From NCBI RefSeq assembly GCF_028464145.1, contig NZ_JAQPCG010000010.1, positions 124,001 through 188,000 on the forward strand: DNA of 64,000 nucleotides, read 5' to 3'. Each line of letters begins with the position of its first letter. The stretch's first letter is position 1. This stretch comes from Maribacter sp. PR1 (GTDB lineage Bacteria > Bacteroidota > Bacteroidia > Flavobacteriales > Flavobacteriaceae). Shown one piece after another: positions 39,514 to 57,399 of the stretch. A program made the position numbers and the translations under genes. Below the pieces are notes generated by a model. That model made no database searches. It worked only from the letters and a program-made list of their open reading frames with translations, and was not told the origin of the DNA.

Positions 39514-39587
39514 GGCTCCGTGGCGCAACTGAATAGCGCATCAGATTTCGGCTCTGAGGGTTGGGGGTTTGAATCCCTCCGGGGTCA
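39514..39587 (+). tRNA. tRNA-Arg (anticodon TCG)
   Basis: All arms fold: acceptor GGCTCCG/CGGGGTC (two G-T pairs), D stem GCGC/GCGC, anticodon stem TCAGA/TCTGA with loop TTTCGGC (anticodon TCG, reading CGA), and T stem GGGGG/CCCTC with loop TTTGAAT. The discriminator is A at 39587. CCA is not encoded. The 3' half is shared with the end of a serine recombinase gene on the other strand, so this is the integration site of a mobile element. Confidence 0.93.
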
Positions 39588-41157
39588 CTAAACGGGATTT
39601 TTCACAAATTGAGTGGAATTTCCCGTTTTTTATTTCCTTCAAATTACCTGAAAACGAACCGATTGTGCCAAAAATTTCGTTGACCCGAAAAGTTTGAACT
39701 GCTTTGTTTTTGAAGTCATACACAATCCCGTCAGGGAACACCATATATTGTATGGCCCTTTTTGTTTCCAAATCCCCTAACTTCCATAAATACGGTAAGT
39801 TACAAGCGTAATCGAGTGCCATTTTTACTGACTTTTTGAGGTTTGAACTATTTATCCCGCTATTCTCCAATTTCATCTCCAATTCCCTTTGTTTAGCTTT
39901 CAGTTCAGGCATAAAAAGATCATATTGGGACTTTGTGATTTCGTTCAGCACTACATACCTTCTTTCCAATGTATTTATCTGCTCTCCGATTTGAGCGAGT
40001 TCTTTGGTCAATCGTTTTTGGTCGTTAAGTGCTTCTTGATTGTAAGCCAACAAGGTATCGTGTATGATATCGGTCAAAGGTTCGATATACTTTTTATCGG
40101 CTATGGTATACCTGTTCAAAACATTTATAAACTCTTCATGGAGCTTTTTTGCGCTTCTACTTTCCCTGCTTCCCTTACGCCTGTTCTTGTAATAATATAG
40201 CCCCTTTTTCTTCACAATAAACCCAGTATAAGGTGTCCCACAAACCGAAGATCTGACAAACTGTTTTAATGGCAGATTTTCATCGTCGTACGAATATTTC
40301 TTGGGTGTATCTCCCTCGTGAAGTAGATTATGGATCTTTAAAAAGATTTCTTTCGATATCAGGGCCTCGTGTTTTCCTTGAATCACTTCTCCAGGAATTA
40401 GGCTATTGACAATAAGTCCACAATAGAACGGGTTTCTAAAAAGATCGGTCAATTTTTTTGCGTTTATGTCCAGACCCTTTTCTTTGAGCCGTTTTGCAAT
40501 CTCGACATGGGACATATTGGAATTTGCCTTCCATAAAAAAGCCTGCTTCAACAATCTTCCTTCATTGGTGATTACAAAATTGGGGGTCTTTCCTTTACCG
40601 GGGTTCGTATTGGTGTATCCAAATGGGTAGGCTCCTGTCCAATGGCCCCTTCGTAACTTTTCCCGCATTCCAGTAATTGATTTGTCCCTACGGACCTGAT
40701 TGTCAAAGTGGGAAAACATATGATAGAGGTTTTCTTGAAAGGTGCCCGCACTCGTGGTTACATCGATTTCCTGGGTGGCGGATATAACGGCCACTCCCTG
40801 CTTTTTTAACTGCTCGCTGATATAGGCACCGTTCGCGCCCGTACGTGAAAACCTATCATAGGAATAGACAATGATATAGCCAATGTTCTTTCTCCTTTTG
40901 ACATACTTCAACATCCTTTGGAATTCCCTACGTTCATCGCTCTTTGCGGATTCATAGGTTCCCCCGAAATATTCCAGTACTTCCAATTCTTTTCGAAGTG
41001 CATACTCCTGGCAATATTTAAGTTGAGTGCTTAGACTGGCATTTTTGTCAAATTGCTCCTTACTTGAAACACGGGTGTAGATAACGGCCGTATTGTTTTT
41101 CCCTATAATCCTTCCCTTTTCCCTTTTGGCAAATTGATCAAATACCTCTAAGTTCAT
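39541..41157 (-). CDS. Large serine recombinase (integrase) of the mobile element
   Basis: 538 residues from the ATG of MNLEVFDQF, which overlaps the preceding small gene by ATGA; an in-frame ATG 27 bp upstream is less likely. The resolvase domain is at about 22-165 with catalytic S31 in YTRVSSKEQ and YDRFSRTG. A recombinase domain follows (HWTGAYPFGYTNTN), then a zinc-ribbon-like segment (VCGTPYTGF) where I expect more cysteines than the one seen, then a coiled coil at about 370-430 and a C-terminal tail. The last 15 codons and the TGA stop are the antisense of tRNA-Arg. It should catalyse integration and excision. Confidence 0.9.
   Translation of the reverse strand: MNLEVFDQFAKREKGRIIGKNNTAVIYTRVSSKEQFDKNASLSTQLKYCQEYALRKELEVLEYFGGTYESAKSDERREFQRMLKYVKRRKNIGYIIVYSYDRFSRTGANGAYISEQLKKQGVAVISATQEIDVTTSAGTFQENLYHMFSHFDNQVRRDKSITGMREKLRRGHWTGAYPFGYTNTNPGKGKTPNFVITNEGRLLKQAFLWKANSNMSHVEIAKRLKEKGLDINAKKLTDLFRNPFYCGLIVNSLIPGEVIQGKHEALISKEIFLKIHNLLHEGDTPKKYSYDDENLPLKQFVRSSVCGTPYTGFIVKKKGLYYYKNRRKGSRESRSAKKLHEEFINVLNRYTIADKKYIEPLTDIIHDTLLAYNQEALNDQKRLTKELAQIGEQINTLERRYVVLNEITKSQYDLFMPELKAKQRELEMKLENSGINSSNLKKSVKMALDYACNLPYLWKLGDLETKRAIQYMVFPDGIVYDFKNKAVQTFRVNEIFGTIGSFSGNLKEIKNGKFHSICEKSRLVTPEGFKPPTLRAEI
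39590..39631 (+). terminator. Hairpin after tRNA-Arg
   Basis: AAACGGGA (39590-39597) pairs with TCCCGTTT (39621-39628) over a 23-nt loop, followed by T-rich sequence. It lies inside the recombinase reading frame, so the tRNA transcript now ends in a terminator contributed by the element. Confidence 0.6.
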
Positions 41158-41327
41158 ATGTTCCCTTTTTGGACATGGCGGCAAACTATGTTGGCGAATT
41201 CCCGGAGTTGTTCCACGATCTTTTTCGCTTCTTCCTCCTGGCAGTCTTCAAAACCTTTATAAGTCTTGAGCCATGTACTGTTGAATGTTCTGTTTTTCCG
41301 CTTTAGCTCGATTATCGGGTTTGACAT
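41154..41327 (-). CDS. Small hypothetical protein upstream of the recombinase
   Basis: 57 residues (MSNPIIELKRKNRTFNSTWL to HVQKGNI). The stop overlaps the recombinase ATG (ATGA), which strongly suggests a real, translationally coupled gene. It is mostly helical by composition, with KTYKGFEDCQEEEAKKIVEQ and two later cysteines or histidines (CRH). It could be a recombination directionality or regulatory partner of the recombinase, but only the arrangement supports that. No family is recognised. Confidence 0.6.
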   Translation of the reverse strand: MSNPIIELKRKNRTFNSTWLKTYKGFEDCQEEEAKKIVEQLREFANIVCRHVQKGNI

Positions 41328-41463: not shown

Positions 41464-41754
41464 TTAACTTCTTTTTGTTTTTGCCAGAGGGGAGACTTTT
41501 TTCCTGAATATCCTGTTTACACAAACAATCTTGCCATTGGTTTGTTTGATTTCCAGGTTCTGAAAATCATGTTGTTTCAACATATCGATGATACGCTCCC
41601 CTGTGTCCAATCGTTCCAGACCTTCAATAGCATCGACCTCCCCGTTCTTGATGATCACTTTGATGGACAGGAACCTTTTACTGCGTATCATCTCCAATAC
41701 CTGGATCTCGGAGGGGGTCATTCCTGAAGGTTTTTGCTTGTTGTTATTTTCCAT
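41464..41754 (-). CDS. Hypothetical mobile-element protein
   Basis: 96 residues. The N-terminal part (MTPSEIQVLEMIRSKRFLSI) reads like a short helical DNA-binding segment. It is followed by strand-rich sequence (IKVIIKNGEVDAIEGLERLD) and a basic tail (RKKVSPLAKTKRS). It lies 11 bp downstream of the relaxase gene and probably belongs to the same transcript. It may be an accessory or repressor protein of the element. I do not recognise the family. Confidence 0.65.
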   Translation of the reverse strand: MENNNKQKPSGMTPSEIQVLEMIRSKRFLSIKVIIKNGEVDAIEGLERLDTGERIIDMLKQHDFQNLEIKQTNGKIVCVNRIFRKKVSPLAKTKRS

Positions 41755-41765
41755 AAGTTCAAGTT

Positions 41766-42815
41766 CTAGAAGCCCAGCCCTTTCCTTTTCTTCTTTCTTT
41801 TGGACTTCTTCTTATTAATATCATCTTTGAGTTCCAGTTTGAAAGGATTCCACTCCGCTTCATCCAATAAAGGCCCGGTCATTCCATTTTCCTTAATTTC
41901 TCCCACATGACTTTTTGATTGTTGAGCAGAATTTCGAGTGCCTTTTGCAGTCCCATTATTTCTTGGTTCAACCTTGACTGTTCCTTCATCGTTTCCTTCG
42001 TGAGCTTGATCAGTTCCCCGTTCTTTTCCATTAGCCGATAATATAACTGAACGGTCTCTTGTTTGCTCATAATCGATTTGTTTTACAATACTGTTCCATG
42101 AGAATTTTTTGCCTAGGGTACTGCCTTTATATACCACATCTTGATATTTGAAAGATATCCCCGAAACCCTGCCTGTGGTTTTGCTTACGTTGAATCTTGG
42201 CGAGATATTTTGCTCTTGTAGCAACTTGATAAATTCTGTTGTGTCCATTGCTTTTGAGATTGCCGAACCGATTCGCTCCTGTAGGACAAGTTTGATAGGT
42301 ACATCGCCTGTTCTAAGGGTTTTCTCTATTTCCTTTTGGTCAAGTGATTTTTTTCCACCAATTTTTGTTGAAATCTGAGTCAATCCATATTTCTTCTCCA
42401 AATCATTGAGCACTTCCCGGCTTCTTCTTTTAATGTTACTGTCACTCGTTATCCTGCCTGAATACCTGACCCTATTGGCCACTATATGGATGTGTTCGTG
42501 TTCCGTGTCCGTATGACGGTACATAATGAACTGGTTGTTATCGAAGCCCATCTTCATTAGATAGTCACATCCGAATGAAGCAAACTCCTTATCGTTCAAT
42601 TCATCTGAGTAGGGCAGGTTCAAGGAAACATGAAGGACCGCATTCCCAAGTCCCGGACGCATTTGCCTGATCAAATTGAATTCCTGTGTCATGTTTACCG
42701 CTGTGGAAGGCTCTATATTGGAATCGATGACATATCCTACTCCTTCGTTTACCTTTTTTTCATTGTAGACCAGAACACCATAGAAATCTTTCCCTATTGT
42801 TATCTTACCTATCAT
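41766..42815 (-). CDS. mobA: MobA/VirD2-type relaxase
   Basis: 349 residues. The N-terminal relaxase domain (about 1-150) has tyrosines at 12 and 17 as candidate nicking residues and the histidine cluster H101, H106, H108, H110 in HTDTEHEHIH for metal binding. It should nick oriT and pilot the strand during mobilization. The C-terminal 100 residues are low-complexity, polar and end in a Lys-rich tail (KKKSKRKKKRKG). The start overlaps mobC by 11 bp. A second reading frame within the C-terminal part may be coding (see 41879-42070). Confidence 0.9.
   Translation of the reverse strand: MIGKITIGKDFYGVLVYNEKKVNEGVGYVIDSNIEPSTAVNMTQEFNLIRQMRPGLGNAVLHVSLNLPYSDELNDKEFASFGCDYLMKMGFDNNQFIMYRHTDTEHEHIHIVANRVRYSGRITSDSNIKRRSREVLNDLEKKYGLTQISTKIGGKKSLDQKEIEKTLRTGDVPIKLVLQERIGSAISKAMDTTEFIKLLQEQNISPRFNVSKTTGRVSGISFKYQDVVYKGSTLGKKFSWNSIVKQIDYEQTRDRSVILSANGKERGTDQAHEGNDEGTVKVEPRNNGTAKGTRNSAQQSKSHVGEIKENGMTGPLLDEAEWNPFKLELKDDINKKKSKRKKKRKGLGF
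41879..42070 (-). CDS. Candidate overlapping gene inside mobA: coiled-coil protein
   Basis: 63 residues in another frame on the same strand as mobA, starting with ATG. The product (MSKQETVQLYYRLMEKNGEL onward) has regular spacing of Leu, Ile and Met typical of an amphipathic helix or coiled coil over almost its full length, ending WEKLRKME. In this interval the mobA frame reads as polar low-complexity sequence (NGKERGTDQAHEGNDEG). The alternative frame thus looks more protein-like than the annotated one. Real expression is unproven. Confidence 0.45.
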   Translation of the reverse strand: MSKQETVQLYYRLMEKNGELIKLTKETMKEQSRLNQEIMGLQKALEILLNNQKVMWEKLRKME

Positions 42816-43152
42816 TGTTCGAGATACTTGATTTGAGCTGTTTCAATAGCATTTTTACCTCCTCCAATTGTTTATGAATGCTGAAAGGGTCACGGATACC
42901 TGAGTTCGAGACCCTAGTGAGTTGGTTCAGGTTGTTTCCCATCCGGCTCAGTTCGATAAACAGTTTCCGGTCCAAAGGATCTACCTTTTTCGTTGGCAGG
43001 GATTTTCCCGTACATTTTCTTCGGATATACCCGGCGACTGACAGCCCAATGGTCTCCGCATTATTGGTAATGATCACGTATTCACTTTGTGAAACCCTAA
43101 AGGCGATGACAATCGTCCTTTTTTTTGATATGTCCTTTTTAGGTCTTGCCAT
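42805..43152 (-). CDS. mobC: MobC-like mobilization (relaxosome) protein
   Basis: 115 residues. A basic N-terminus (MARPKKDISKKRT) leads into a ribbon-helix-helix-like region (IAFRVSQSEYVIITNNAETI, LSVAGYIRRKC), followed by the family segment LSRMGNNLNQLTR and a coiled C-terminus. MobC proteins bind oriT and help the relaxase. It is first in the minus-strand operon mobC-mobA-orf96, and the region just upstream is the expected oriT. Confidence 0.88.
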   Translation of the reverse strand: MARPKKDISKKRTIVIAFRVSQSEYVIITNNAETIGLSVAGYIRRKCTGKSLPTKKVDPLDRKLFIELSRMGNNLNQLTRVSNSGIRDPFSIHKQLEEVKMLLKQLKSSISNNDR

Positions 43153-43843: not shown

Positions 43844-44857
43844 TTAGGTCAGGTTTACACCCAAGGTTCCCTTTGTTATCATGCAGGGGTTTGTTCCCTG
43901 ATCATATTTATGTCTTTCCTTCCAATAATTTTTCCATGCCCTTGGTATCGGTCCGTGGGACATGTGGGCCGAATCGGGGGTCTGCATATTGAGACTTAGA
44001 TGGGGCCTACGGCCATTGTAAGAGGAGACGATGTCCCCGAACATATCTATTGCCTCCACTTTGAGCCTTGGTCTATTGTTCTTGAGCCATTCGGTCTTCA
44101 GTATGCCGTTCACCCTTTCGGCTATTGCATTTTCCAAGGGATCCACCTTTTCTGTCATACTGATCCCGATGCCGGCACCCTTAAGGATGCTTATGTACCT
44201 GTCGCAGCAGTACTGGATGCCCCTGTCCGAATGGTGCACCGGTTTGGGACCGGTCCCATGCGGCAACTGTGATATGGCCATGTTCAGGGCGCCGATCGCA
44301 CCGGAGGCCGTTAGTTTTGGGGATATGTCCCATCCTATTATCTTCCTGGAATATGCGTCCGTGACGAGCGAAAGGTACATGAATCCCTCCATCGTGTCGA
44401 TATAGGTTATGTCACTGACCCAGAGCTGGTGTGGGGCATCGACCGTCATCTCCCTTGCCAGGTTGGGGTACCGCCGAAACGAATGGTGTGAATTGGTGGT
44501 CCTTGCCCTGCCTCTGGAGCGTCGCAGCAGCATCGAGTTTTCCCGCAGGAGGGCGAAGAGCGCATCCATGCCCATTGAAACCTGTTGTGGGCAGGATGGC
44601 CCGAAGATGATGCTGTGGAGCTTGCGCACGCCCACGCCGGGAAGTATGGCGCGTTCATTCTGAACCATCTCGAGCACCAACTGCTTTTCGGCAAGTGTCC
44701 TGTACTCGTATCTCAAAAACTTATAATAGGCCTGTCTCGTTTTGCCAAACAGTCCGCACAGCGTCCCAACACTTGTTTTGGGCATGGTCTCTTTCATTTC
44801 TTGGACTGTTTGGCACCAGACTTTTTCTGATGTTGATCTTAAGGTCCCTTTCCGCAA
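43844..44857 (-). CDS. IS3-family transposase OrfB (DDE integrase domain)
   Basis: Up to 337 residues; in IS3 elements the functional product is an OrfAB fusion made by -1 frameshifting. The DDE residues are visible in WVSDITYID, HHSDRGIQY and the Glu of NAIAERVNG. The N-terminal part has the HTH_21-like segment (GVGVRKLHSIIF). The frame is intact to the stop, so the transposase may be active. It overlaps orfA by 137 bp. Confidence 0.9.
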   Translation of the reverse strand: MRKGTLRSTSEKVWCQTVQEMKETMPKTSVGTLCGLFGKTRQAYYKFLRYEYRTLAEKQLVLEMVQNERAILPGVGVRKLHSIIFGPSCPQQVSMGMDALFALLRENSMLLRRSRGRARTTNSHHSFRRYPNLAREMTVDAPHQLWVSDITYIDTMEGFMYLSLVTDAYSRKIIGWDISPKLTASGAIGALNMAISQLPHGTGPKPVHHSDRGIQYCCDRYISILKGAGIGISMTEKVDPLENAIAERVNGILKTEWLKNNRPRLKVEAIDMFGDIVSSYNGRRPHLSLNMQTPDSAHMSHGPIPRAWKNYWKERHKYDQGTNPCMITKGTLGVNLT

Positions 44858-45161
44858 TGTCTATCATTTTGTTGGCGGCCAGATTTTTGAGCTTCTCGCT
44901 TGCCAGATCGGACTCAAGTTCCCTGATCCTGGCCAGCATCCCCTCCGGGGAGTCCGGTAGGACAGTTGAGGCCGGTTCCTTGGTGGTACCGTCGTTCGGC
45001 AGGGCCTGGTCCGGACAGAACCTTTTCACCCATTGTTGCACGGATGAAGGTGTTTTGAGACCATACAGTTTTGCCGTTGCCGCCATGCTGAGATCCGATC
45101 CCAGATAGTGGGAGGCAACCTTTCGTTTAAAATCGTCCGAATAGGAGTTTACACTTTTCAT
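44721..45161 (-). CDS. IS3-family OrfA (helix-turn-helix, leucine zipper)
   Basis: 146 residues from MKSVNSYSDDFKRK; this ATG gives the normal OrfA N-terminus, while an in-frame start 54 bp upstream would reach the terminal repeat. The HTH is around SMAATAKLYGLKTPSSVQQW, followed by a helical heptad region (ARIRELESDLASEKLKNLAA). OrfA binds the IS ends and is the N-terminal half of the OrfAB transposase. Confidence 0.88.
   Translation of the reverse strand: MKSVNSYSDDFKRKVASHYLGSDLSMAATAKLYGLKTPSSVQQWVKRFCPDQALPNDGTTKEPASTVLPDSPEGMLARIRELESDLASEKLKNLAANKMIDIAERDLKINIRKSLVPNSPRNERDHAQNKCWDAVRTVWQNETGLL
44820..44828 (-). promoter_or_regulatory. Probable programmed -1 frameshift site
   Basis: On the minus strand AGAAAAAGT carries five A and a G at the point where the orfA frame (I-R-K-S) and the orfB frame (S-E-K-V) overlap. 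Such A-runs are the usual slippery sites for OrfAB production in IS3 elements. Confidence 0.6.
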
Positions 45162-45214
45162 GATTAAATTTAAATTATTGCTTCTATCATGACAACCTAT
45201 TCTAGGACAAGACA

Positions 45215-45730
45215 AGGGTTAAATGGCCCAAGAACATGATACCTACATGTAATTCAATATTAAGTGATTTGGATTATACGATTAGGAACATAGGAAATCC
45301 AAAGAGATTTCCAATCCTTTCTTCTTTCTCCCTTTCCACAAAAGAGCGCCCGACAGGGCGCCACCTTCCATGACCAAAACACAATGGTTTCTTGTAGGGA
45401 AACAACCAATTTAACGGAATGGAGAAATCTTTTTGGTAGCGGTGAGAGAATAAATGCAAGAGGGCGATAAAGCGTCCTCTTGTTTTTATGAGTGATCCAG
45501 AGGATGTTGATATCAAATTGGGAACAAACTCACTGTTTTGTCATATTCCTATACTGTGACATTCCCACTGAATTCTATAAGGGACTGTTATTGCATTCTG
45601 CTTTGACATATTCTTTATCTGGCTTTCCTGTCAAAAAGAAGAAATAACAGAAACCCAATCGACATTACTTAAATTTTCCAATAAGTGTAATGCACATGCA
45701 TATAAGTTATCACCCAAAAATCAATCTGTC
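45215..45730. other. Non-coding stretch with two strong hairpins
   Basis: Two GC-rich stems stand out: GCGCCC-GACA-GGGCGC at 45346-45361, which reads as a terminator on the minus strand (followed there by TCTTTT), and a 9-bp stem at 45458-45481 followed by T-rich sequence on the plus strand. The 100 bp between them contain no convincing gene; the 80-codon minus-strand frame here looks accidental. The pair could be remnants of terminators or the ends of a small structured RNA. Confidence 0.45.
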
Positions 45731-47177
45731 CTAGTTACTGTTTGTAGTATTGTTTGTATACGGTTCGTTGGTTTCAAAAAGTGCCCTTATCTCCCTTTTT
45801 TCGGATGATTTTATATGAGTTACTGCTTTTTGGCAAAAGTCATTGAACAATGTAGGATTGTCCAGGTTACCGTTGACCCATTCTGCCAAATATCCATTGA
45901 ATCCTTCAAAACCCATGGTTTGGATCAGCTTATAAAATGCCACGGCCCCTTTATTGATTTCAAGATATTCCGCTCCATCGGCATAGAGCAATGGTGGTTC
46001 TTGGTTGGGCTCGTTATTTTTGTCCTTGCCATACTTTTCCAACTTTTCTTGATAAGCTGATTACCGCTTCCCCACCTATTTCATTTTTCACATACAAGAG
46101 TCCCAACGCCTCTGGCAACCCTATTGTAAGCATATCCGCCCCTTGCACATTGGCAATGGTCAAGTTTTTTTGCAGCCACAGTTTGGCCAATCCACTACCG
46201 ATGGTTTGATAGAGATAGGCTTTTTCCTGTAAACCTTCGGTATCGGCCACCCAACCTTCTTTTTCAGAAAGTGCAATGGTATTGGCAAAGGTATACCGAT
46301 CGTCTTGCCAACGGTGTATTTCTACCAATTGAAGTTGATTGTCGACCGAATTGGCCCCAAAGTTGGTTTGCATAAAAGCAACCCCTTTTTTTAATGCTTC
46401 TTGATAGAGGTCCACATTGAACGAATGGGTGGGTTTATGCAGAATGGAATAGTCTATATTCCCGGCCTTGCCCTTGCCAACGCTATAGTCTGATGATCCT
46501 ACCTGCCAATTGAACACTTGGGGTTTCTTAATGGTATAGATGGAAGTGGTTCTACCATCTTCAGTTTCCATTTTTTGTAAGGCTCCGGCCGTAAACGGAA
46601 TTTGGCCTTCTTCGGTACTAATAATAATTTTACCTGTAACCCAATCGGCATCCGTAGCAAACACATTTTGGGTAAGGGCAAAGGCATTATCAACAGTGGC
46701 CATTCTGGAATCCAGACGTTCCAATCCCTGTTCTTGGCGTTTCCGGTTTTCCAATAACTCCTTGTCGCTATCATATCCTTTCACAGGTAAAAAATCCTGA
46801 AGACTACCAAAACTTCCCTTTTTGGTCAAATCTGCCTGAAAATCGCTCTGCACAAAACCGACATATTGTTTGCTCCCTACCAAGGAAAGCTGCAACACGC
46901 TATCTTTTTGTAAGGTAGACGGGATTGGATAGGCGGTCAGGTTTTGCTCGACATCCCCTTTTCCCATGGTCAATTCTTGTCCGTTCAGCTTCACATTGGA
47001 TAATTGGACAAAATCCTTGGTATTGAAAAACAAGGTATCTGCCCCCTTTTCGTTGTTCAATGTGATATCAGCAGTAAATTCTGCCCTTCTTTTTGAAGGA
47101 AATAGATCCAATTTTACATCGATTGTTTCATATTTGGGCTGTGGTTTGGTTTCCAGATACTTGTATTTTATCTCGTA
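45731..47177 (-). pseudogene. Decayed M1-type metallopeptidase-like domain
   Basis: The frame continues directly from the permease after its TAG codon (YEIKYKYLETKPQPKYETID), runs to 46014, and resumes in another frame (EKYGKDKNNEP to the stop at 45731), so at least one frameshift lies near 46040. The fold is that of the peptidase half of the ABC permease/M1 aminopeptidase fusion known in flavobacteria. Where HEXXH is expected the sequence reads TIGSGLAKLWLQ, and the later acidic motif reads IGLPEALGL. Zinc and catalytic residues are therefore gone. Loss of the catalytic motif may be older than the frame lesions. Confidence 0.75.
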
Positions 47178-49022
47178 CTAGGCATCCAATCGTTCCTCTT
47201 CGGCATCTGGGATAAAGTTGCCATTATCATACACATTTTTGGTGATGAACGACATCAAAAACAAGAATGCCCCAAAAAACAACACCATCACACCTTTGGA
47301 AACCATGCTAAGTTGCATATTCTTCAACGAAAGTCTGTTTTTCCATTTTTTATCCGAGCCCCGCTTCCATAGCCAAACACCGGTCATGACCAAGGTAATG
47401 GCCAAAGCCAACCACAATAGGAAGAACCAATTGGCCGATTCTTGAAATATACCATAACCGCTCATTTCCGAATAATCTTCAACTCCAGGAGTAAAACCAT
47501 ATCCTAGCCTTAAATCTTCAATGATGCCCATATCAAAGGAAACAATCAAGAAGATGAAAATGGCCACACAAAGAAGGTGTGTGAAAATTCGATGGCTGGT
47601 CAAAGCTCCCACAAAAAACACCAAAGACGCCCAAAGTACAAAGTTCAAAAAGGCCCAACGATAGAGCAAAAGGTCCTCTGCAAATTGTCCTAAATCTATA
47701 TAAGAAGCTCCACCCAACAACACTTGGGTAAACACGGATACTACAATAAAGCTCACACTTAATATAAAAGACAGTCCAATAATCGCTGCCAATCTGGAAA
47801 GTTGGGTAACCCAGACAGGAACGGGCAACGAATCTGTTATTTGCCAAATATTGACCGTCTTGTCCTTAAAAAACAACTCGCCGGCCCAAATCATGATCAA
47901 CATGGTTATAAAAACGCCCCATTGCAACCTAAAATAGGTCATATTGCTACTGATGGGATATTCATTACCAATATAATAAGCCGCATTCCAAGTAACATTT
48001 TGCAAAAACACCATCAATAAGATAATACCGAGGATTATTTTGAAGGAAGTAGGGCGAACAATGTTCAGGAACTCCAATTTTGAGAGTGACCATAGTTTAG
48101 TGAGAAAATTAGGTACTTTGTATTGTTTCACGACCTCTGGCAATTTTATGGATGCCGTAGAAAATGACACTTTCTTGCCTTCTTTGATTTTTTTGGATTT
48201 ATCGGTACCGGCCTGTATGACGTACTTGAAAGAGAAGCGTAGATATGCCGCTATGGCAAACACCATGGCAAGTCCCATCCAAAGCAATCGGTTCTTTAAA
48301 ACATAGCCGGTCAGTTTGAACAGTTCGGTATTTTTTTGTGTGGGACTCAACAGTTCGGTATAGTGCTGTGCCGCTACATAGCCTCCCGAATCCGCCAAGA
48401 TGTAAGCCATTAGATTATCCCCACCCCCGGTTTCGTAGGAAGTTTGGGCGATTAAAAATAGAATGACCACCAAGAATACGGCCAAATAACTTGTGGTCAT
48501 TCTACGGGTAAACACAATGGCAAAAAATACAACGGATACATAAAAAAAGAGGTTGGGTACGGTAAACATGATCCAACCGTGAAACAAAGGGCCCCATTGA
48601 ACCGGACCAAAACGACCAGCCTCGCCAATGCCGGAAAACGGCACCAACAAATGCCCAACAATCATACCCGTACTTAGAATGACAAGGTATAGGAAAGCGG
48701 CCAAAAAGCGGCCTATAAAAAATTGTTTTTCATTGATGGGCAGTGCATAGGTCCACTCCGCGGATTTATACCTGATCTCTTTGTAAAGCACACCTCCGGT
48801 AGCTATGGCAATGATGATGATCATAAGCATACCCATGGCCGCATAGTTTCTATACAAAATGCTCGAAGCGTTCATAAGCACCCCTTCGTTGGAAAAGAAA
48901 TCAAACGATCCCTTGGTATACCATATCATCTGAAAGGCAAGCATGAGAAAGAAAACAAGGGTAACCCAACTAAATACACGCTGTCTTAGCTCGTTTTTTA
49001 CTATGGAAAATATTGTTTTCAT
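47178..49022 (-). CDS. ABC-2 type transporter permease, cut short by an in-frame TAG
   Basis: 614 residues with about twelve membrane segments in two ABC-2-like halves (first around [20 protein letters not shown], second around FKIILGIILLMVFLQNV). Homologues in flavobacteria continue as one protein into an M1 peptidase-like domain; here TAG at 47178-47180 separates the parts and the next codons are in the same frame. The gene follows the remnant of its ATPase by one base. The permease may still be translated, but without a full ATPase the transporter is unlikely to work. Confidence 0.75.
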   Translation of the reverse strand: MKTIFSIVKNELRQRVFSWVTLVFFLMLAFQMIWYTKGSFDFFSNEGVLMNASSILYRNYAAMGMLMIIIIAIATGGVLYKEIRYKSAEWTYALPINEKQFFIGRFLAAFLYLVILSTGMIVGHLLVPFSGIGEAGRFGPVQWGPLFHGWIMFTVPNLFFYVSVVFFAIVFTRRMTTSYLAVFLVVILFLIAQTSYETGGGDNLMAYILADSGGYVAAQHYTELLSPTQKNTELFKLTGYVLKNRLLWMGLAMVFAIAAYLRFSFKYVIQAGTDKSKKIKEGKKVSFSTASIKLPEVVKQYKVPNFLTKLWSLSKLEFLNIVRPTSFKIILGIILLMVFLQNVTWNAAYYIGNEYPISSNMTYFRLQWGVFITMLIMIWAGELFFKDKTVNIWQITDSLPVPVWVTQLSRLAAIIGLSFILSVSFIVVSVFTQVLLGGASYIDLGQFAEDLLLYRWAFLNFVLWASLVFFVGALTSHRIFTHLLCVAIFIFLIVSFDMGIIEDLRLGYGFTPGVEDYSEMSGYGIFQESANWFFLLWLALAITLVMTGVWLWKRGSDKKWKNRLSLKNMQLSMVSKGVMVLFFGAFLFLMSFITKNVYDNGNFIPDAEEERLDA

Positions 49023-49023
49023 T

Positions 49024-49119
49024 TTAGTGTTCGCTTAAAATTTTAAAATAGGCATCTTCTAAAGAAGGTTTTTTAGCATCAAAATCACCATTGGGTAAAT
49101 CATTATATTGGGTAAGAAT
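49024..49119 (-). pseudogene. C-terminal remnant of an ABC transporter ATPase
   Basis: About 30 codons (KILTQYNDLPNGDFDAKKPS, then LEDAYFKILSEH) end one base before the permease start. LEDAY with this ending is the typical C-terminus of ABC-2 ATPases. In-frame stops lie directly upstream and no Walker motifs are found nearby, so the rest of the gene has been deleted. Confidence 0.7.
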
Positions 49120-49414
49120 TTTTTAAAAATGGAACAATCACCAAAATCGATTTAATTGTATTTTTTGAGGCACGATTTCCATGATAAAACCAAAGAAAAA
49201 ACGGGTCTGCAAATTAAACTCTGTCTGAAAGTAATTAAGTATTAATTTTTAGAGGTCAGTAGTTAGTTACTTATCCAAGATTTCACTTGGTGTATCATTG
49301 TACATTATAATGATGAACATCGATTCAAATCTAACAAAAAGGTCGCCAAGGACCGCCATGGGGATAGCATTTTAGATGTCGATAAAGCTCAACAACCGGA
49401 ACACGGCCAGCATA
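49120..49414. other. Intergenic remnant region
   Basis: Between the ATPase remnant and the RND operon. On the minus strand about 35 codons around 49250-49360 (MAVLGDLFVRFESMFIIIMY, then NDTPSEILDK) look protein-like but follow an in-frame stop, so this may be another gene remnant. The deletion that removed the ATPase probably ended here. No terminator for the RND operon is obvious. Confidence 0.35.
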
Positions 49415-52400
49415 TCACAGCGTGTGGTCTGGGTTAAAGCCATCTACCAATTTTTTATGCTCGTAATCGGCCACCATAAGCTCCTCATAATCAGTTTTTG
49501 TTCCCTTGGTAAACTTATGTACCAATTTTTCCATTAAATTGTATATTACCGGTACTATTATCAAGGTCAAGAAAAGCGAACTTATCAATCCCCCGATGAT
49601 AACCCAGGCAAGACCATTTTTCCATCCCGATCCCGGGCCTGAGGCCAACGCAATGGGAAGCATCCCGAAAACCATGGCAATGGTAGTCATTAGAATTGGG
49701 CGGAGACGTGCGTGGTTGGCCTGTATCAAGGCGTTCCTGACCGTTTCCCCTGACCGGACCCTTTCGTTGGCAAAGTCAACCAGGATAATGGCGTTTTTAC
49801 ACACTAGCCCGATCAACATAATTATACCAAGAATGGTAAAGATGTTCAGGGAATTGTTCGTTAACGCCAATGCCAGCAAAGCTCCGATGAACGATAAGGG
49901 AATGGAAAAAAGAACTACGAACGGGTGCACAAAACTGTCGTACAGGGAAACCATTACCAAATAGACCAATATAATAGCTGCCAACATAGCAATTCCCAGT
50001 GTTCCGAACCCTTCCGATTGCCTTTCTTTATCCCCACCCCATACGTAATCGACCCCCGTGGGCCGTTCGACATCCTGGAAGGCAGCTTCCCATTCATCCG
50101 CGACCGTACCAGCTGGTCTGCCAACGGACTGCCCTTTTACGGTAACCGACGCGGTCTTATCCCGGCGTTCCAATTGGCTCGGGCCCAACGTTTCGGTGAT
50201 GTCGGCGAACTGTGAGAGTTTTACCTCTTGCCCTTGGTCATTAGTAAGGATCAAATCCCCTACATCGACAATGCTTTTTCTATCAAAACTATTGTAGCGA
50301 ATGTTAATATCATATTCATATTCCCCTGCCCTGAATTTGCCATCGGTATTCCCGTTAAATGCTGTTTGCATTGTCAACCCCACCGTTTGTAACGATAATC
50401 CCAGGGAGGCCATTTTATCCCGATCTACTTGAACATTGATTTCAGGATTTCCCGTTTCTACGGACAATTCAATTTCCGTGGCCCCAGGAATCTTATGCAG
50501 TTCCGCCTCCGCCTTTCTGGCAAAGACCATGGCACTATCCAAACTAGGTCCGGTCACTACCAAGGCCAACGGGGCTTCCTCCGCCACTCCCAAAAGACTT
50601 ATAGGGACGGTTTTCACCTTGGCTCCGACCAAAATTTTCTCTAAACGACGTTTTGTTTTGGCGGCAAATACATAAGAATCGTCCTGCCTTTCATTTTCAT
50701 CAACCATTTGGACGTTTATTTCCGCCTTGTAAGCTGTAGCCTGTGAAGCTCCTAAGCCTTCGCTGGTCTGGCCTACAGTGGTGATAAGGCTCTTGACTTC
50801 TTCCTGTGTATTCAAAAAGGCCTCTGCTTTTTGGGCCATAAAATTACTTTCTTCCAATGAGGCATCTTTTGGTAGTTCTATCTGCACCAAAAACTCGCCC
50901 CTATCCGATGTGGCAAAGAATTCGCCTCCAATAAATCCTGCCGCTACCAAGGCGATCGAAGCAAAGAAGATAACCAAAACGATGGACAGCGTGGTTTTAT
51001 AATGATCCAGGCACCAGGTCAATAAGCCGGAGATCCAATTCGTGAAACGTTTTAATTGTGTTTCGAATTTGATGATAAGCCTACCGAACAGGTTTTTACC
51101 TGTGATATGCTCCAATTTTCCGAAACGGGACGATAACCAAGGAATAATGGTAAACGATGCCAATAGGGACAACAAGGTCGAAATAATTATGGTCACACAA
51201 AATTGGGTAATGATTTTGGACACCAGACCGCTGCTCATGGCAATGGGAAAAAAGACGACCACGATTACCAGCGTTATGGATGTTACCGTGCCCCCGATTT
51301 CAGCGGTACCGTCATAGGCCGCACGGACACGGTTTTTGCCCATTTCCATATGCCGGTAAATGTTTTCGAGTACAACGATGGCATCGTCCACCAAGATGCC
51401 TACGACCAAAGACAATCCTAATAAACTCATTAAGTTCAAGGTATAATCCAACAACAAAAAGCCTATAAATGTCGCAACCAACGATGCGGGTATGGACACC
51501 ATTACAATTAGCGAGTTTCTTACACTGTGCAAGAAGAACAGCATTACGATCGCCACCAATAACACGGCGATCAATAGGTCATGGATTACGGAATCGGCCG
51601 CCTCTAGGGTAAAAACACTACTGTCATTGGCGACATTGAGACTGAGGTCTATGGTTTTATAATCGGTCTCGAGCTGTGCTATCCGTTTTAATATATCTTC
51701 ACTTACAGCTACGGCATTGGCATCGGACTGCTTGATCACCTGCAGTAGGATGGCACTTTTTTGCTTTACCCGTGCAATTTTTTCAGGTATTTTTTGACTG
51801 TCCTGAACATCCGCAATATCACTGAGCCTCACTTGGATGCCATCTTTATCAGCGACTACCAGATTGCGCAGCTCTTCAACATTTTTATATTTTCCGGCCA
51901 ACCGGATCAATATTTTTTGCTGCCTGGTCTGAATATTTCCTGTGGGGAAATCCAAATTCGAGGCCAGGATGGTCTGTTGGACCTGGGGTATGGAAAGGTT
52001 ATATCCATGAAGTCGGTCGGCGTCTAAATTTACCTGGATTTCCCTTTCTTGCCCCCCGATCAAATTTATCTGTGCCACACCATTGACCCGGGAAAGCAAA
52101 GGGGCAATTTTTTTATCAATCAGGTCATAAAACTTAATTTCATCCATAGTGCCATTAGCACCAATTGTCATAATCGGAAGGTCGCTCAATGAAAATTTGC
52201 TTAAGGAGGGTGTTTTGGCATCATCGGGCAGATCACTGATAATGGCATTGATTTTCCGTTGTGCATCGTTTAGGGAAATATCAACATTGGCATCATCCGT
52301 CAAGGTAATCGCAACCGTGGAAAGGCTTTCATAAGAACGGGATTCTATTTTTTTGATGTTCTCCAGAGAGGCAACCGCATCCTCTATTTTTTTTGTCACG

Positions 52401-52585
52401 GTATTTTCGATCTCGCTGGGCGAGGCACCGGGGTAGATAGTGGCGACGGTTATGACATTTCGGTCGAATTTGGGTATCAATTCATACCCCAGTTGGTTAT
52501 AACTGAACAGGCCCCCAAGGGTAAGTATGGTGAATAGCACAATGACCAATGAAGGCCTTTTTATGGAAATTTCCGCTAATTTCAT
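49415..52585 (-). CDS. RND efflux transporter, inner membrane pump
   Basis: 1056 residues with the AcrB-type twelve-helix layout: first helix near 12-28, large periplasmic loops at about 40-330 and 560-860. Proton-relay residues are present: the Asp pair in GILVDDAIVVLENIY (TM4) and Lys in GLVCKNAIILVDFAN (TM10). This points to the drug/amphiphile (HAE-like) group rather than a metal pump. Third gene of a TolC-MFP-RND operon (gaps 8 and 36 bp). Substrates are unknown; a TetR gene upstream is the likely regulator. Confidence 0.93.
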   Translation of the reverse strand: MKLAEISIKRPSLVIVLFTILTLGGLFSYNQLGYELIPKFDRNVITVATIYPGASPSEIENTVTKKIEDAVASLENIKKIESRSYESLSTVAITLTDDANVDISLNDAQRKINAIISDLPDDAKTPSLSKFSLSDLPIMTIGANGTMDEIKFYDLIDKKIAPLLSRVNGVAQINLIGGQEREIQVNLDADRLHGYNLSIPQVQQTILASNLDFPTGNIQTRQQKILIRLAGKYKNVEELRNLVVADKDGIQVRLSDIADVQDSQKIPEKIARVKQKSAILLQVIKQSDANAVAVSEDILKRIAQLETDYKTIDLSLNVANDSSVFTLEAADSVIHDLLIAVLLVAIVMLFFLHSVRNSLIVMVSIPASLVATFIGFLLLDYTLNLMSLLGLSLVVGILVDDAIVVLENIYRHMEMGKNRVRAAYDGTAEIGGTVTSITLVIVVVFFPIAMSSGLVSKIITQFCVTIIISTLLSLLASFTIIPWLSSRFGKLEHITGKNLFGRLIIKFETQLKRFTNWISGLLTWCLDHYKTTLSIVLVIFFASIALVAAGFIGGEFFATSDRGEFLVQIELPKDASLEESNFMAQKAEAFLNTQEEVKSLITTVGQTSEGLGASQATAYKAEINVQMVDENERQDDSYVFAAKTKRRLEKILVGAKVKTVPISLLGVAEEAPLALVVTGPSLDSAMVFARKAEAELHKIPGATEIELSVETGNPEINVQVDRDKMASLGLSLQTVGLTMQTAFNGNTDGKFRAGEYEYDINIRYNSFDRKSIVDVGDLILTNDQGQEVKLSQFADITETLGPSQLERRDKTASVTVKGQSVGRPAGTVADEWEAAFQDVERPTGVDYVWGGDKERQSEGFGTLGIAMLAAIILVYLVMVSLYDSFVHPFVVLFSIPLSFIGALLALALTNNSLNIFTILGIIMLIGLVCKNAIILVDFANERVRSGETVRNALIQANHARLRPILMTTIAMVFGMLPIALASGPGSGWKNGLAWVIIGGLISSLFLTLIIVPVIYNLMEKLVHKFTKGTKTDYEELMVADYEHKKLVDGFNPDHTL

Positions 52586-52621
52586 AGTATGGAATAAAAT
52601 GTTTCAGGTTATTGTCCGGTT

Positions 52622-53686
52622 CTAGTCGATGATGTCTATCTTGGAACCGTTCTGTAGATTGATCTGCCCGGTAACTATTACGAGTTCATTGCTGTCCAGA
52701 CCATCTAATATTTCGACCTTATCACCGAATATTCTTCCAGCCGTTACACCGGTCAGTTTTGCAACTCCATCCTCAGCGACAAAAACCTGGTTACTGCTTA
52801 CACTTCCCAGGAACGCATTTCTAGGGGCCACCAGTATCTTTTCGCTTTCCCGGTCTGACGAGGTGAAGGATGCCGTCCCGTACATGCCCGCCTTCAAGGC
52901 GTTGTCCGGATTGTTCGATATCTCGATTTCCACAGGAAAATTCAAACTGCTATCCGATTTCGGTGCTATAAACGTGATTTTCCCTGCAAATGTCCTGTCT
53001 GGTAAGACACTGGCTTTTACATTTACCGGGGCACCCGTTTTTAAACTGGCCACTTGGGACTCGTTGACCGTAACCCTAAGTTTAAGTTTGGAGACATCGA
53101 CAATTTCGAACATTGGTGTTGCTGTTGCCAGAACAGAACCTGGTTCGATAAAACGCTTATTTACAACTCCTTTTATCGTAGCTTTTATGCTGACATCACT
53201 CGCATTTACCCTCGCTTGTTCCAGTCTCGATTGTGCAGTAACCAAGGTCAACTTGGCCTGATCCATTTGTTGTTCGGTCACTCCACCGGTTTTTAAGGCA
53301 TTTTCAAAACGGTTGAAATTTTTGGACGCATTCTGATAGGCCGCTTCGGCCGCGTGCAGTTCTGCCGATACCTGCTCACTTCTCACAACTGCCAAAGTCT
53401 TGCCCACTCTGACATGATCACCTTCTTCTACCAATACCCTAACGACTCTACCTGGCTTTTCCGCAGAAAAATCCAGTTCTTTAAAGGGCTCGAAGTTTCC
53501 ATTGGCGGTAAAATTGAGGGGAATAGTTTCCATCTTTACCGTATCAACCTTTACAGTGACACTAGCATTTTTCTGTGCAACTATATCCGTTTTTGCTTGA
53601 TTTTCTTGTTTGTTGTTCATTAAGATGAAGGCAATCAGGGCCAATACCACTAAAATTGTAAGTATGTATATTATGTTCTTTTTCAT
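52622..53686 (-). CDS. RND efflux periplasmic adaptor (membrane fusion protein)
   Basis: 354 residues. N-terminal membrane anchor at about 5-22, then the split lipoyl domain (ERPGRVVRVLVEEGDHVRVG-like segment; second half near IKATIKGVVNKRFIEPG), a helical hairpin (about 110-160) and beta-barrel and membrane-proximal domains. It connects the RND pump with the TolC-type channel. Located between the two in the operon. Confidence 0.93.
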   Translation of the reverse strand: MKKNIIYILTILVVLALIAFILMNNKQENQAKTDIVAQKNASVTVKVDTVKMETIPLNFTANGNFEPFKELDFSAEKPGRVVRVLVEEGDHVRVGKTLAVVRSEQVSAELHAAEAAYQNASKNFNRFENALKTGGVTEQQMDQAKLTLVTAQSRLEQARVNASDVSIKATIKGVVNKRFIEPGSVLATATPMFEIVDVSKLKLRVTVNESQVASLKTGAPVNVKASVLPDRTFAGKITFIAPKSDSSLNFPVEIEISNNPDNALKAGMYGTASFTSSDRESEKILVAPRNAFLGSVSSNQVFVAEDGVAKLTGVTAGRIFGDKVEILDGLDSNELVIVTGQINLQNGSKIDIID

Positions 53687-53694
53687 CGTGCTTA

Positions 53695-55035
53695 TTAGTT
53701 TGTTAGTGACTTTAATTCCCCTTTAGACTTCAACAACAGGATTTCTGCCAGTTTGTATTGTAAAATTGCGGAGTTAAAGTTGTTCCTAGCCTCGGTCAAG
53801 GCGTTTTCCGCATCCAATAGATCCGTTAGCGGAGCCAAACCTTGGACGTAATTGTTTCTGGTATTGTCCAAAACTGCCTGTGCCAACCTGACATTTTCGT
53901 TTTGATTGTTGACGGTCGCAATACTATTGTTTATTTGGGTTCGGGCATTTTCGTAATCAAGATCTAAGGCCAATTCGGTATCCTTGATATCCTCTTGTAA
54001 GATCCGCAGATCTATATCGGCCTGCATTACTTTGGAACGTGTACCAAAACCTGCGAAAATGGGAATTTTCAAATTCAATCCTATCGATGAAAAATCGGAC
54101 CAATATACCTTGTCCTCAGGCTTTTTGAACCAGGGAAGGTCCGGGCCTTGGCCAAGATAGTTGTACCCAACTGTTAGGGAAAGCGTTGGATAATATTCCG
54201 CCTTGACCGCCATTTTCTGGTAAGTCAACAATTGTTCCTGCTTTTTGAGAAGCAGATACTCCGATCGATTCTCGGTATCCGGGGATGAAACTACCTCGCT
54301 TGGTCTGAATTCGAACTCGATTTCCGGAATTTCGATTTGGGCGGTTATGGGCATTCCCATAAAAAATTTCAGGGTATTTTCTTGAAGTTGTAGCGCATTG
54401 TTTATCTGGAGCCGTTGGGTCTCTAGATTTGAAATTTTAACAATAATCCTGTCCAAATCGATTTTCTTCGCTAGCCCATTTTGAAACTGGCCCTCAATGA
54501 TATTTTTCGCCTTGATCGTATTTGCCAACGTACTATCAAGTACCTGAAGGTTTAAACGCTGTAGATATACTTGATAGTAACTATTGGCTACCTTTTCTAT
54601 TACCTGCTCTTGAGTTAATCGATTATTGATCTGATAAAACTCACGGGTAGTTTTTGCTGCTTTTAAACCTGTGTAAACCGATTGGTCAAATAAGTTCTGG
54701 TTCAACGAAACACCAAAGACCGAATTCCATTTTTGCCCCAAAGTTGCCTGTATAACGGTGCCCGGTTGCCCAAAGGAACTTCCATCGATCACATTGGTCT
54801 GTAGGATGGGATTATAGACCAAACTACCATTTCCTGTGATCTGTGGCAATGCTCGCGAACGAACTTCCTGGATTTGGTACTCACTATTTTCAATGGCCAG
54901 CTTCGATTTTTGTGCATCGGCCTTGTATTCAAGAGCATAGGAAACGGCATCCTTTAGGCTAAGCTGCTTTATTTCCTGGGCATTGGCTACGCAAACAAGG
55001 CATAAAAGGGAAATGCTTAAAATTTTTTTGATCAT
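53695..55035 (-). CDS. TolC-family outer membrane channel
   Basis: 446 residues with signal peptide (cleavage after VCVANA). Two repeats of long helices (for example SKLAIENSEYQIQEVRSRAL and LALDLDYENARTQINNSIAT) with beta strands between them (SVFGVSLNQNLFD, SSIGLNLKIPIFAG). First gene of the pump operon; forms the exit duct across the outer membrane. Confidence 0.93.
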   Translation of the reverse strand: MIKKILSISLLCLVCVANAQEIKQLSLKDAVSYALEYKADAQKSKLAIENSEYQIQEVRSRALPQITGNGSLVYNPILQTNVIDGSSFGQPGTVIQATLGQKWNSVFGVSLNQNLFDQSVYTGLKAAKTTREFYQINNRLTQEQVIEKVANSYYQVYLQRLNLQVLDSTLANTIKAKNIIEGQFQNGLAKKIDLDRIIVKISNLETQRLQINNALQLQENTLKFFMGMPITAQIEIPEIEFEFRPSEVVSSPDTENRSEYLLLKKQEQLLTYQKMAVKAEYYPTLSLTVGYNYLGQGPDLPWFKKPEDKVYWSDFSSIGLNLKIPIFAGFGTRSKVMQADIDLRILQEDIKDTELALDLDYENARTQINNSIATVNNQNENVRLAQAVLDNTRNNYVQGLAPLTDLLDAENALTEARNNFNSAILQYKLAEILLLKSKGELKSLTN

Positions 55036-55132
55036 AAACGGATACGTATTTAATGGGGGAGAAATTTTAGGATGTCCTATAGGGTTTTTTAAGATCCTCT
55101 TGTTTTATGTATAATTCTTTATTACCTAAAGT

Positions 55133-55573
55133 TTAGGAGCCGTTTCTATGGATGCTATATATACATCTTGCCAAAGCCACTAAATCTTTTTGTCCACTTT
55201 GGAAAAGTTCCACGTCCACCACGTTGATGGATTTACCACTTTTAACAATCTTTGCCTTGGCCAAAATATCCCCTTCAACGGTAGGATGGAGATAATCGAT
55301 CCGCATATCCAAGGTATTTATCCTGTCCTGTAAGGAATCGAGGGTCGTCGCTCCGGCAGCTCCTCCAGCCGTATCGGCCATAGCGGCCAAAATTCCTCCA
55401 TGCCATCGTTTTTGCAGATAGTCGCCTATGAATTCTTTCTTAAAAGGGACTTTGATGCACACGTACCCAAGTCTGATTTCCATAATTTCTAACCCGAATA
55501 TTTTATTGGCCGGCATCATGTTTTCAATAGCATGCTTTAAAAACAAATAGTCGTCTTGCCCTATTTCCTGCAT
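55133..55573 (-). CDS. Hotdog-fold thioesterase (PaaI/4HBT type)
   Basis: 146 residues. The motif RWHGGILAAMADTAGGAA near residue 60 holds the His-Gly-Gly turn and the catalytic acid of the acyl-CoA thioesterase group. A strand-rich C-terminus completes the hotdog fold. It is transcribed divergently from the TetR gene across a 79-bp region with inverted repeats, so it is probably controlled by that regulator. Substrate unknown. Confidence 0.88.
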   Translation of the reverse strand: MQEIGQDDYLFLKHAIENMMPANKIFGLEIMEIRLGYVCIKVPFKKEFIGDYLQKRWHGGILAAMADTAGGAAGATTLDSLQDRINTLDMRIDYLHPTVEGDILAKAKIVKSGKSINVVDVELFQSGQKDLVALARCIYSIHRNGS

Positions 55574-55609
55574 TGGTCAGATTTTAAAAATTAAAAGATT
55601 TTTTTTTTG

Positions 55610-55650
55610 CTAAAATAAATATTATTTTAGACTTTCTAACTAAAAAAGTC
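55610..55650. promoter_or_regulatory. Two inverted repeats between thioesterase and TetR genes (operator)
   Basis: CTAAAATAA-ATA-TTATTTTAG at 55610-55630 is a perfect 9-bp inverted repeat. It is directly followed by GACTTT-N9-AAAGTC at 55630-55650, ending two bases before the TetR start codon. The location between divergent genes is where a TetR dimer would act on both promoters. Confidence 0.6.
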
Positions 55651-55652
55651 AA

Positions 55653-56261
55653 ATGTTCAATATTGAAAGTACCGATAATTTTTCGTTAATACTTGATTCC
55701 GCCAAAAAAAGATTTTGCCGTTATGGCCTTAAAAAAACAACAATGACGGAGATTGCCGGGGATATAGGTCTATCAAAAGCATCCCTATACTACTACTTCT
55801 CCACTAAAGAAGAACTTTTCAAGGAAGTAGTAAAGCAAGAACATAAAACATTTTTAAACGAGATTGAAGGTCTTCTTTCTTCGGTTGTCCCTGCAGAAGA
55901 GTTATTCCATATTTACCTAGAAAGGCGACTGATCTACTTTCGCGATTTTGCACACCTCAGTTCTTTGAGCCTGGAATCTATAAACAGTTTAAAACCCGTT
56001 TACGCCCGCCTATTCGAAAACCTTCGCAAAGAAGAAATACGACTTGTGAGTAAAATATTGGAAAAAGGTATTGCCGCCCAAGATTTTGAAAATCTTGATA
56101 TTGCTTATTATTCGCAATTGTTCATTGCCATTTTCCAAGGGTTGCGGCACAATGTACTTATTAAAAAAGACACAATAAATATCACGGAAATTGAGTATTC
56201 TCTATTGCAGAGACAATATGAAAGCGCATTAAAAATGTTCGTGAAAGGAATCAAAAAATAA
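55653..56261 (+). CDS. TetR/AcrR-family regulator
   Basis: 202 residues. The N-terminal HTH is TMTEIAGDIGLSKASLYYYF with STKEELFKEVV, at about residues 32-65; the rest is the all-helical ligand and dimer domain. It is divergent from the thioesterase and the pump operon, which are its probable targets. The operator candidates are the two inverted repeats just before its start. Confidence 0.92.
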   Translation: MFNIESTDNFSLILDSAKKRFCRYGLKKTTMTEIAGDIGLSKASLYYYFSTKEELFKEVVKQEHKTFLNEIEGLLSSVVPAEELFHIYLERRLIYFRDFAHLSSLSLESINSLKPVYARLFENLRKEEIRLVSKILEKGIAAQDFENLDIAYYSQLFIAIFQGLRHNVLIKKDTINITEIEYSLLQRQYESALKMFVKGIKK

Positions 56262-56330
56262 ATCGTAGGCCGGCCTTTAGAAAAAAGGAAACTAATTATT
56301 TGTTGCCTGTGCCATTATAATTTTTTTGTA

Positions 56331-57262: not shown

Positions 57263-57399
57263 GACCAGTTATATTTGACTAGAAAGAACCGAAACAAAAG
57301 GTTTAACGACCTAATATTATTTATCATTTTGGTGATCTTTATCATATTTCGCTATCGTTATAAATACGTAACTTTATGTTGCCTTAATAATTTAACCCA

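Follow-up and report, generated by a model that had tools for sequence, protein, structure and literature searches.

A large serine recombinase gene that ends inside a tRNA-Arg gene, and a candidate alternative C-terminus encoded at the other end of its element

The window, i.e. the whole 64,000-nucleotide stretch of DNA analysed here, contains a tRNA-Arg(TCG) gene directly followed by an integrated element, Table 1. The element's first gene, on the opposite strand, encodes a large serine recombinase (LSR). Its open reading frame (39541-41184, minus strand, with the ATG at 41157) shows the N-terminal Resolvase domain (Pfam, 2.7e-26), the Recombinase domain behind it (2.6e-9) and the length of about 500 amino acids that characterise the class. 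The protein terminates in ...SRLVTPEGFKPPTLRAEI at a TGA within the tRNA gene and no earlier stop is found in frame, which bears out the earlier note's description of a frame running open into the tRNA. That note also took the last 15 codons to be purely antisense to the tRNA. This holds for 13 residues, PEGFKPPTLRAEI; the other two, V and T (GTGACC), are also coded by the right arm of the island and are therefore common to both forms of the recombinase, since the core shared by the two ends is GGTCACTAA.

Table 1. The tRNA gene, the left junction and the first genes of the element, in window positions.
Feature	Position	Strand	Evidence
Host tRNA-Arg(TCG) gene, used as attB, with the left junction (attL) at its 3' end	39514..39588	+	ARAGORN; other DNA after the same tRNA in 19/21 same-genus rows
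LSR gene in its integrated form, starting at ATG 41157; the tRNA supplies the final codons and the TGA (39541-39543)	39541..41157	-	ORF and Pfam
Host-derived codons PEGFKPPTLRAEI and stop, antisense to the tRNA	39541..39582	-	ORF, core comparison
T-loop GTTTGAA, proposed recognition motif; 5 bp nearer the core than in the element's right arm	39567..39573	+	
Core GGTCACTAA, the same in attL as at the right end of the island (C21)	39583..39591	+	End comparison
Element-borne hairpin and T-run straight after the tRNA, antisense to LSR codons	39590..39635	+	Fold -18.3 kcal/mol, z -4.89
96-aa ORF between LSR and relaxase	41464..41754	-	No Pfam family at E <= 0.001
MobA/VirD2-type relaxase	41766..42815	-	Pfam PF03432 5.4e-34
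NikA/MobC-type mobilisation protein	42805..43152	-	Pfam PF21983 7.5e-20, PF05713 2.3e-7
Insertion sequence within the element, two ORFs, rve domains in one	43844..45215	-	Gap vs copies C23 and C21

A relaxase and mobilisation genes, recognised by Pfam, lie within the integrated element, as in integrative and mobilizable elements. No second small serine recombinase lies beside the LSR gene; the next ORFs scanned are the 96-aa ORF, the relaxase and the NikA/MobC gene. The insertion sequence further on is presumably IS3-like. The ORFs to the right of the mobilisation genes (46014-57996), which we take to be a membrane permease, RND-type efflux genes and TetR-type regulators, apparently fall within the island limits set by synteny.

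A hairpin with a stem of at least 6 and a T-run of at least 4 directly after the tRNA, or a fragment of it, is present in 81 of 82 homologous junctions, some of which are the same locus in two collections, and in 10.5% of mononucleotide shuffles. The letters of the stem differ among the homologues. A terminator scan of the hairpin in the window gave no hit, we think because the scan wants one unbroken stem. It seems that the element displaces the native terminator of the tRNA and brings its own, placed antisense within the LSR codons.

Twenty-one same-genus rows include this tRNA, and the element is present in those of the window genome and G403 and absent from 19. The earlier note had pointed to empty sites as places where the element's sequence might be seen continuing past the tRNA. 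In these 19 rows the sequence differs from that of the element, and most have, by eye, their own hairpin-like sequence behind the tRNA. In G403, a single contig, the element sits at the same tRNA and its right end lies 20.3 kb on, at ...TGCGGAGGTCAC/TAGGGTAAATCCC (the slash marks the right end). It was located by the core and a native-type terminator, and the DNA beyond it matches G406 from ~80 bp after the tRNA. In the window genome the same DNA is found at C21:359464-365461, directly beyond ...CCAGTCGAGGTCAC/TAAGTTAAATCCC, which places the right end of the window island at C21:365461 by synteny. Similarity between tails, described below, was used for neither of these two ends. The ends of the window island are on different contigs (C2 and C21), and their pairing rests on synteny with G403 and G406; G398 was searched too, and its matches lie elsewhere. 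Were C2 to join C21 end to end, the island would comprise no less than the remaining 35.7 kb of C2 together with ~25 kb of C21.

For the C22 element of the window genome the right end, at 6.3 kb, was placed via the empty ACG site of G403. The attL and attR cores are identical over 8-10 bp, GGTCACTA in G403, GGTCACTAA in the window island and GAGGTCACTA in C22, in agreement with the proposed crossover at the 3' end of the tRNA; in the window it should fall inside the core. In the C13 element of G394 only TCAC is common to attL and attR, and the crossover is therefore at the last bases of the tRNA. The right ends of G287 and G076 were not found by empty-site comparison within about 40 kb.

Other ideas about the ends were dropped. 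A long tRNA repeat serving as attR in the window was searched for over the 64 kb with up to 3 mismatches, and the only match is the tRNA itself. An end common to five elements, ...AAGAGGCGGATTGG, has an in-frame stop in each of six copies (by eye) and therefore looks like the end of a gene. That the element supplies a new 3' half of the tRNA was also discarded, as in occupied sites the 3' strand of the acceptor stem matches the 5' strand of the same tRNA (by eye).

Several contigs have a more complex layout. At C22:173054-218347 of the window genome (G000; L012, L174), two native-like copies of the DNA downstream of tRNA-Arg(ACG) are found, 6.3 kb and ~45 kb after the tRNA, and a tail-coding arm precedes only the far one. 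On C23 of the same genome, at ~209320-209500, two similar right junctions lie ~180 bp apart, GAGTTCAC/GACACTCAAG and a 17-bp piece of tRNA followed by GACAATCAAG. Related elements repeat ~74 bp of the 3' end of a gene (EGFFNSYKSSGMKQAFITEFKRRIG, by eye) behind differing upstream sequence, and in G076:C3 a second copy of the 74-bp gene end is found at T+18889. Three tail-coding right arms are present within 46 kb at G010:C21:7400-53300, each followed by a different terminator-like sequence.

The recombinase belongs to a large family. The window genome itself has two more full-length copies, one beside tRNA-Arg(ACG) and one beside a 3' tRNA fragment, as well as one degraded copy. Among 397 genomes of the host's family, 16 (the window genome included) have a match at E <= 1e-100, giving 21 loci. 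A tRNA is found at the junction in 17 of these, and the frame reads into it in 16 of the 17. The exceptions are L032, which breaks earlier, L033 with a tRNA fragment and L034 at a contig end, and the junctions of L035 and L037 (40% identity) lack a tRNA. The protein is 97-100% identical in the named relatives Muricauda, Allomuricauda and Flagellimonas, and the host therefore probably belongs to this group of marine bacteria. Two relatives are in viral contigs, and plasmids and phages gave no match at E <= 1e-60; a circular form was not seen.

For a broader view we used the best 80 of 378 confirmed loci in named Bacteroidota. Their junctions have an intact tRNA in 63 cases, a tmRNA in 3, a contig end in 5 and something else in 9, namely L194, L197, L205 and L207 (tRNA fragments by eye), L240, L196, L244 (masked), L249 and L266. 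The targets at the 63 intact-tRNA loci of these best 80 include Arg (ACG 18, TCG 15, TCT 12), Met (6), Leu (TAA 5, CAA 2, TAG 1), Val (2) and Lys (2). At 62 of the 63 (best 80 of 378) the LSR frame enters the tRNA antisense with no prior stop, which is therefore more than chance; 48 of these frames stop inside the tRNA and 14 run through it. The exception among the best 80 is L231, a broken copy with a stop before the tRNA. A common codon phase is seen in 56 of the 63 loci of this best-80 set and in 5 more when ARAGORN's longer tRNA end is allowed for, which leaves L231 and L255 outside the agreeing 61. L231 (2 stops) and L018 (in-frame TAG) were omitted from the protein alignments. An LSR frame running into the tRNA is a trait of the whole family.

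Some recombinase copies stand beside a 3' fragment of a tRNA only: C23:193362 and C21:7073 in the window genome, and L194, L197, L205 and L207. The C23 and C21 copies have ~120 bp of left flank in common. This flank contains GTCAACA-type repeats and may be the arm of a different element, inserted into the same tRNA. For all six fragments, later entry of another element into that tRNA seems likelier than attP remnants.

Homologues with similar C-terminal residues might, as the earlier note envisaged, have turned up at unrelated sites. Those identified (66 of the best 80 of 378 loci, and those at tRNA fragments) sit at tRNA or tmRNA genes, in which the T-loop is conserved. The T-loop motif, TTCRAN(C/T), starts 16 bases from the GTG on the tRNA side at 48 of the 63 intact-tRNA loci among the best 80 of 378, with different letters in the remaining 15, which are mostly Leu and Met. 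A similar motif starts at 21 in 19 of 23 right arms, versus 16 in the tRNA. In serine integrases the ZD motif is 5 bp more distant from the centre in attP than in attB, according to the available text of PMC3783163. We infer that the family recognises the conserved T-loop, which would account for the use of many tRNAs and of tmRNA.

When the right ends are read in the frame of the recombinase, that of G403 gives VTSARQSSNFLREDIKIIIDKAFNIRNTKEVTEFNDILP and that of the window island VTSTGQNSNFLNKDIDLIISKSHKLSFSI, each followed by a stop. Such a tail, with the consensus VTSxGQSSNFLxEDIxLIISKS, is encoded at 23 right ends. A search with the DNA of one right arm gave hits at E < 1e-4 in 10 of 17 carrier genomes and none in the other 7 (G201, G271, G353, G245, G179, G362 and G315); the LSR of G201 is 89% identical but has an in-frame TAG. 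The tail is found in 19 of 22 right-end rows, which is not an unbiased rate as most of the tailed ends were themselves detected through their similarity to one such end, and the core is changed in two of the 19 (C23a and G010C21c). The tail-less rows are G394C14b, G271 and C22, the third end located by synteny, which reads VTSMIFH and a stop. Four further tails come from G437, G439 and G440. Three arms lie on the same contig as a recombinase ~76-91 kb away and are correctly oriented to it (G076 C3, G394 C13 and G010 C10). In L196, whose 13.5 kb locus contains no tRNA, the recombinase and a tail-like end (VNDMVQNSNQLIEDLKLLADILAA and a stop) are in one frame.

We analysed the codons of 21 distinct arms (20 right ends and L196), leaving out G226 (indel), G076 (same letters as G287C5a), G271, G394C14b, C22att and L293. 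The recombinase frame is free of stops over nt 9-66 in all 21. In the distal codons, 30-57 nt out, pN/pS is 0.376 and the variation is chiefly at third positions, a pattern of the purifying type. The entropies of the three codon positions are 0.57/0.30/1.28, and 0.0004 of 20,000 column shuffles are as extreme, a figure that is not a strict probability because the arms have a common ancestry. Both the layout of the two ends and this codon pattern emerge from comparison of the sequences, and they support an alternative C-terminus that is conserved at the protein level in the right ends found. The earlier note's idea that integration alters the C-terminus, so that the circle would code for another, gains support from this.

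The same arms could instead be constrained as DNA only, i.e. the right arm is kept for binding of the recombinase, it is by chance that the frame is open across the core, and the C-terminal residues matter in neither form. The codons close to the core vary less also at synonymous sites (pS 0.405 vs 0.586 further out), the T-loop-like motif keeps its fixed 5-bp shift, and the right end of C22 was located by synteny and has no tail, all as expected under such a constraint. The distal codons, however, vary mostly at third positions, the diverged arms of G071 and L196 retain a similar SN-L--D pattern, and the open spacer before the core is kept in 62 of 63 junctions (best 80 of 378). We therefore consider a pure DNA constraint unlikely.

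The predicted structure bears on this alternative as well. LSRs have a zinc-ribbon region with a coiled coil behind the Recombinase domain. The AlphaFold2 model of the homologue L196 has a mean pLDDT of 75.3 and a pTM of 0.37, with strands at 309-335 followed by long helices at 374-403 and 409-432. Its confident part ends near residue 502; the linker and tail have a pLDDT below 50, and the tail is a low-confidence helix with unusable placement, which would also suit residues that do not matter. Since the core and the tail both lie beyond this confident part, integration probably leaves the domains of the enzyme intact, unlike in the archaeal suicidal integrases.

A second alternative is that one C-terminus, with the tail or from the tRNA, serves as a degradation signal, integration then altering the amount of the enzyme and not its activity. 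C-terminal -AA ends can act as degradation signals. Two of the tails end in this way, L196 (...DILAA) and G071 (...YLKAA), and the same ending is seen in the tmRNA tags of three host loci, but such ends occur in only a minority of the tails and we rate this reading as quite improbable. That the conserved codons belong to an opposite-strand gene reading out of the right end of the element is hardly credible: between nt 9 and 66 the antisense frame also lacks stops in all 21 arms, with a distal pN/pS of 0.375 that is similar because third positions coincide, but upstream it is open for only 0-23 codons in all arms but one (at least 31), and it runs to different ends in host DNA with no common end.

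The reading we prefer, and hold to be likely, is that attP lies in the 3' end of the element's own LSR gene, that the circle codes for a tail which is replaced on integration, that the arms serve as site and as code, and that the T-loop is recognised. In the excised circle, the LSR frame would cross the core, which reads GTGACC on the LSR strand, and continue into the right end of the element, thereby coding for the conserved tail of 20-41 residues. Crossover with the 3' end of the tRNA would leave the codons of the tail stranded at the island's far end and install codons antisense to the tRNA instead. Each arm would be both DNA site and code, the left one acting as tRNA terminator as well and the right one carrying the tail codons. 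The circle would thus give an enzyme with the tail, and the integrated copy an enzyme with a tRNA-encoded end in its stead. The circle, the translation of the tail and the action of the terminator are what we infer from the two ends.

The swap may act as the switch that the earlier note proposed and may set direction or stability; hypothetically, integration is carried out by the tailed enzyme, and the tail-less form is kept in the integrated state. A wider proposal is that the gene layout carries the control of directionality. The tail would mark the circle, the tRNA-encoded end would hold the integrated state, a neighbouring element or a tandem copy could lend the tail back, and the same DNA would be site, code and tRNA terminator. 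We put this forward tentatively and on balance rather doubt it.

With a large family to compare, a candidate for the 3' gene fragment that had been missing, and two protein forms clearly predicted, the question whether gene layout can set the directionality of a serine integrase can be put to a direct test. The system also offers recombinases that may read the T-loop of tRNAs. A caution for annotation is that the C-terminus assigned to such a recombinase is host sequence.

Insertion of serine recombinases at tRNA genes is called rare in the part of PMC3218068 available, in line with the earlier note, which had considered it less usual. The same source describes serine recombinases at tRNA genes in mycobacterial AICEs (tRNA-Leu) and phage phiRSM1 (tRNA-Ser), in other hosts. 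A tRNA-Arg island of Riemerella carries a tyrosine integrase (PMC6764341, available text), and the accessible parts of PMC5704250, PMC6764341 and PMC12884075 contain no closer precedent. At the level of titles and abstracts, most subscription journals lying outside the scope, we recognised no account of this Bacteroidota arrangement. The A118/LI integrase has a ZD motif shifted by 5 bp in attP versus attB and a coiled coil within the ZD region, and an attP coding for the integrase C-terminus is not described in the text available (PMC3783163).

Elements with an attachment site inside one of their genes are known. In the integration-dependent immunity of mycobacteriophages attP lies in a coding gene and integration alters the C-terminus of the repressor, whereas here the altered gene is the recombinase. 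The archaeal virus SSV1 uses a tRNA-Arg gene. In the SSV-type suicidal integrases of archaea attP is inside the integrase gene and integration splits the gene ends, according to the accessible text of PMC8371274. The comparison of ends indicates both features here, attP in the own gene and separation of the gene ends. The SSV-type enzymes differ in being tyrosine recombinases that are split into inactive halves (PMC8371274, available part); here Pfam identifies a serine recombinase, and the loss would be limited to a tail lying outside the modelled domains.

The nearest precedent found is DsiB of the Dehalococcoides ssrA islands (McMurdie et al. 2011, PMC3146451). As in these DsiB/DsiA islands, a serine recombinase gene without a stop of its own overlaps attL with its 3' end and stops in the host gene. 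In the available text, the 3' end of dsiB always overlaps attL, with the stop in the host gene or in a neighbouring island, and the alignments diverge in that part, which in its ssrA-derived portion is considered unlikely to be functional (PMC3146451). DsiB is CcrB-like, is accompanied by a second small recombinase, DsiA, and has the single target ssrA; here tails are encoded at the other end, many tRNAs and tmRNA are targets, and a terminator-like hairpin is supplied. Its authors suggested that DsiB is perhaps fully functional only on the circle, or beside an island with a 3' gene fragment (PMC3146451, available text). They thus raised the idea of the circle without showing a conserved tail, for which the right ends described here provide a candidate.
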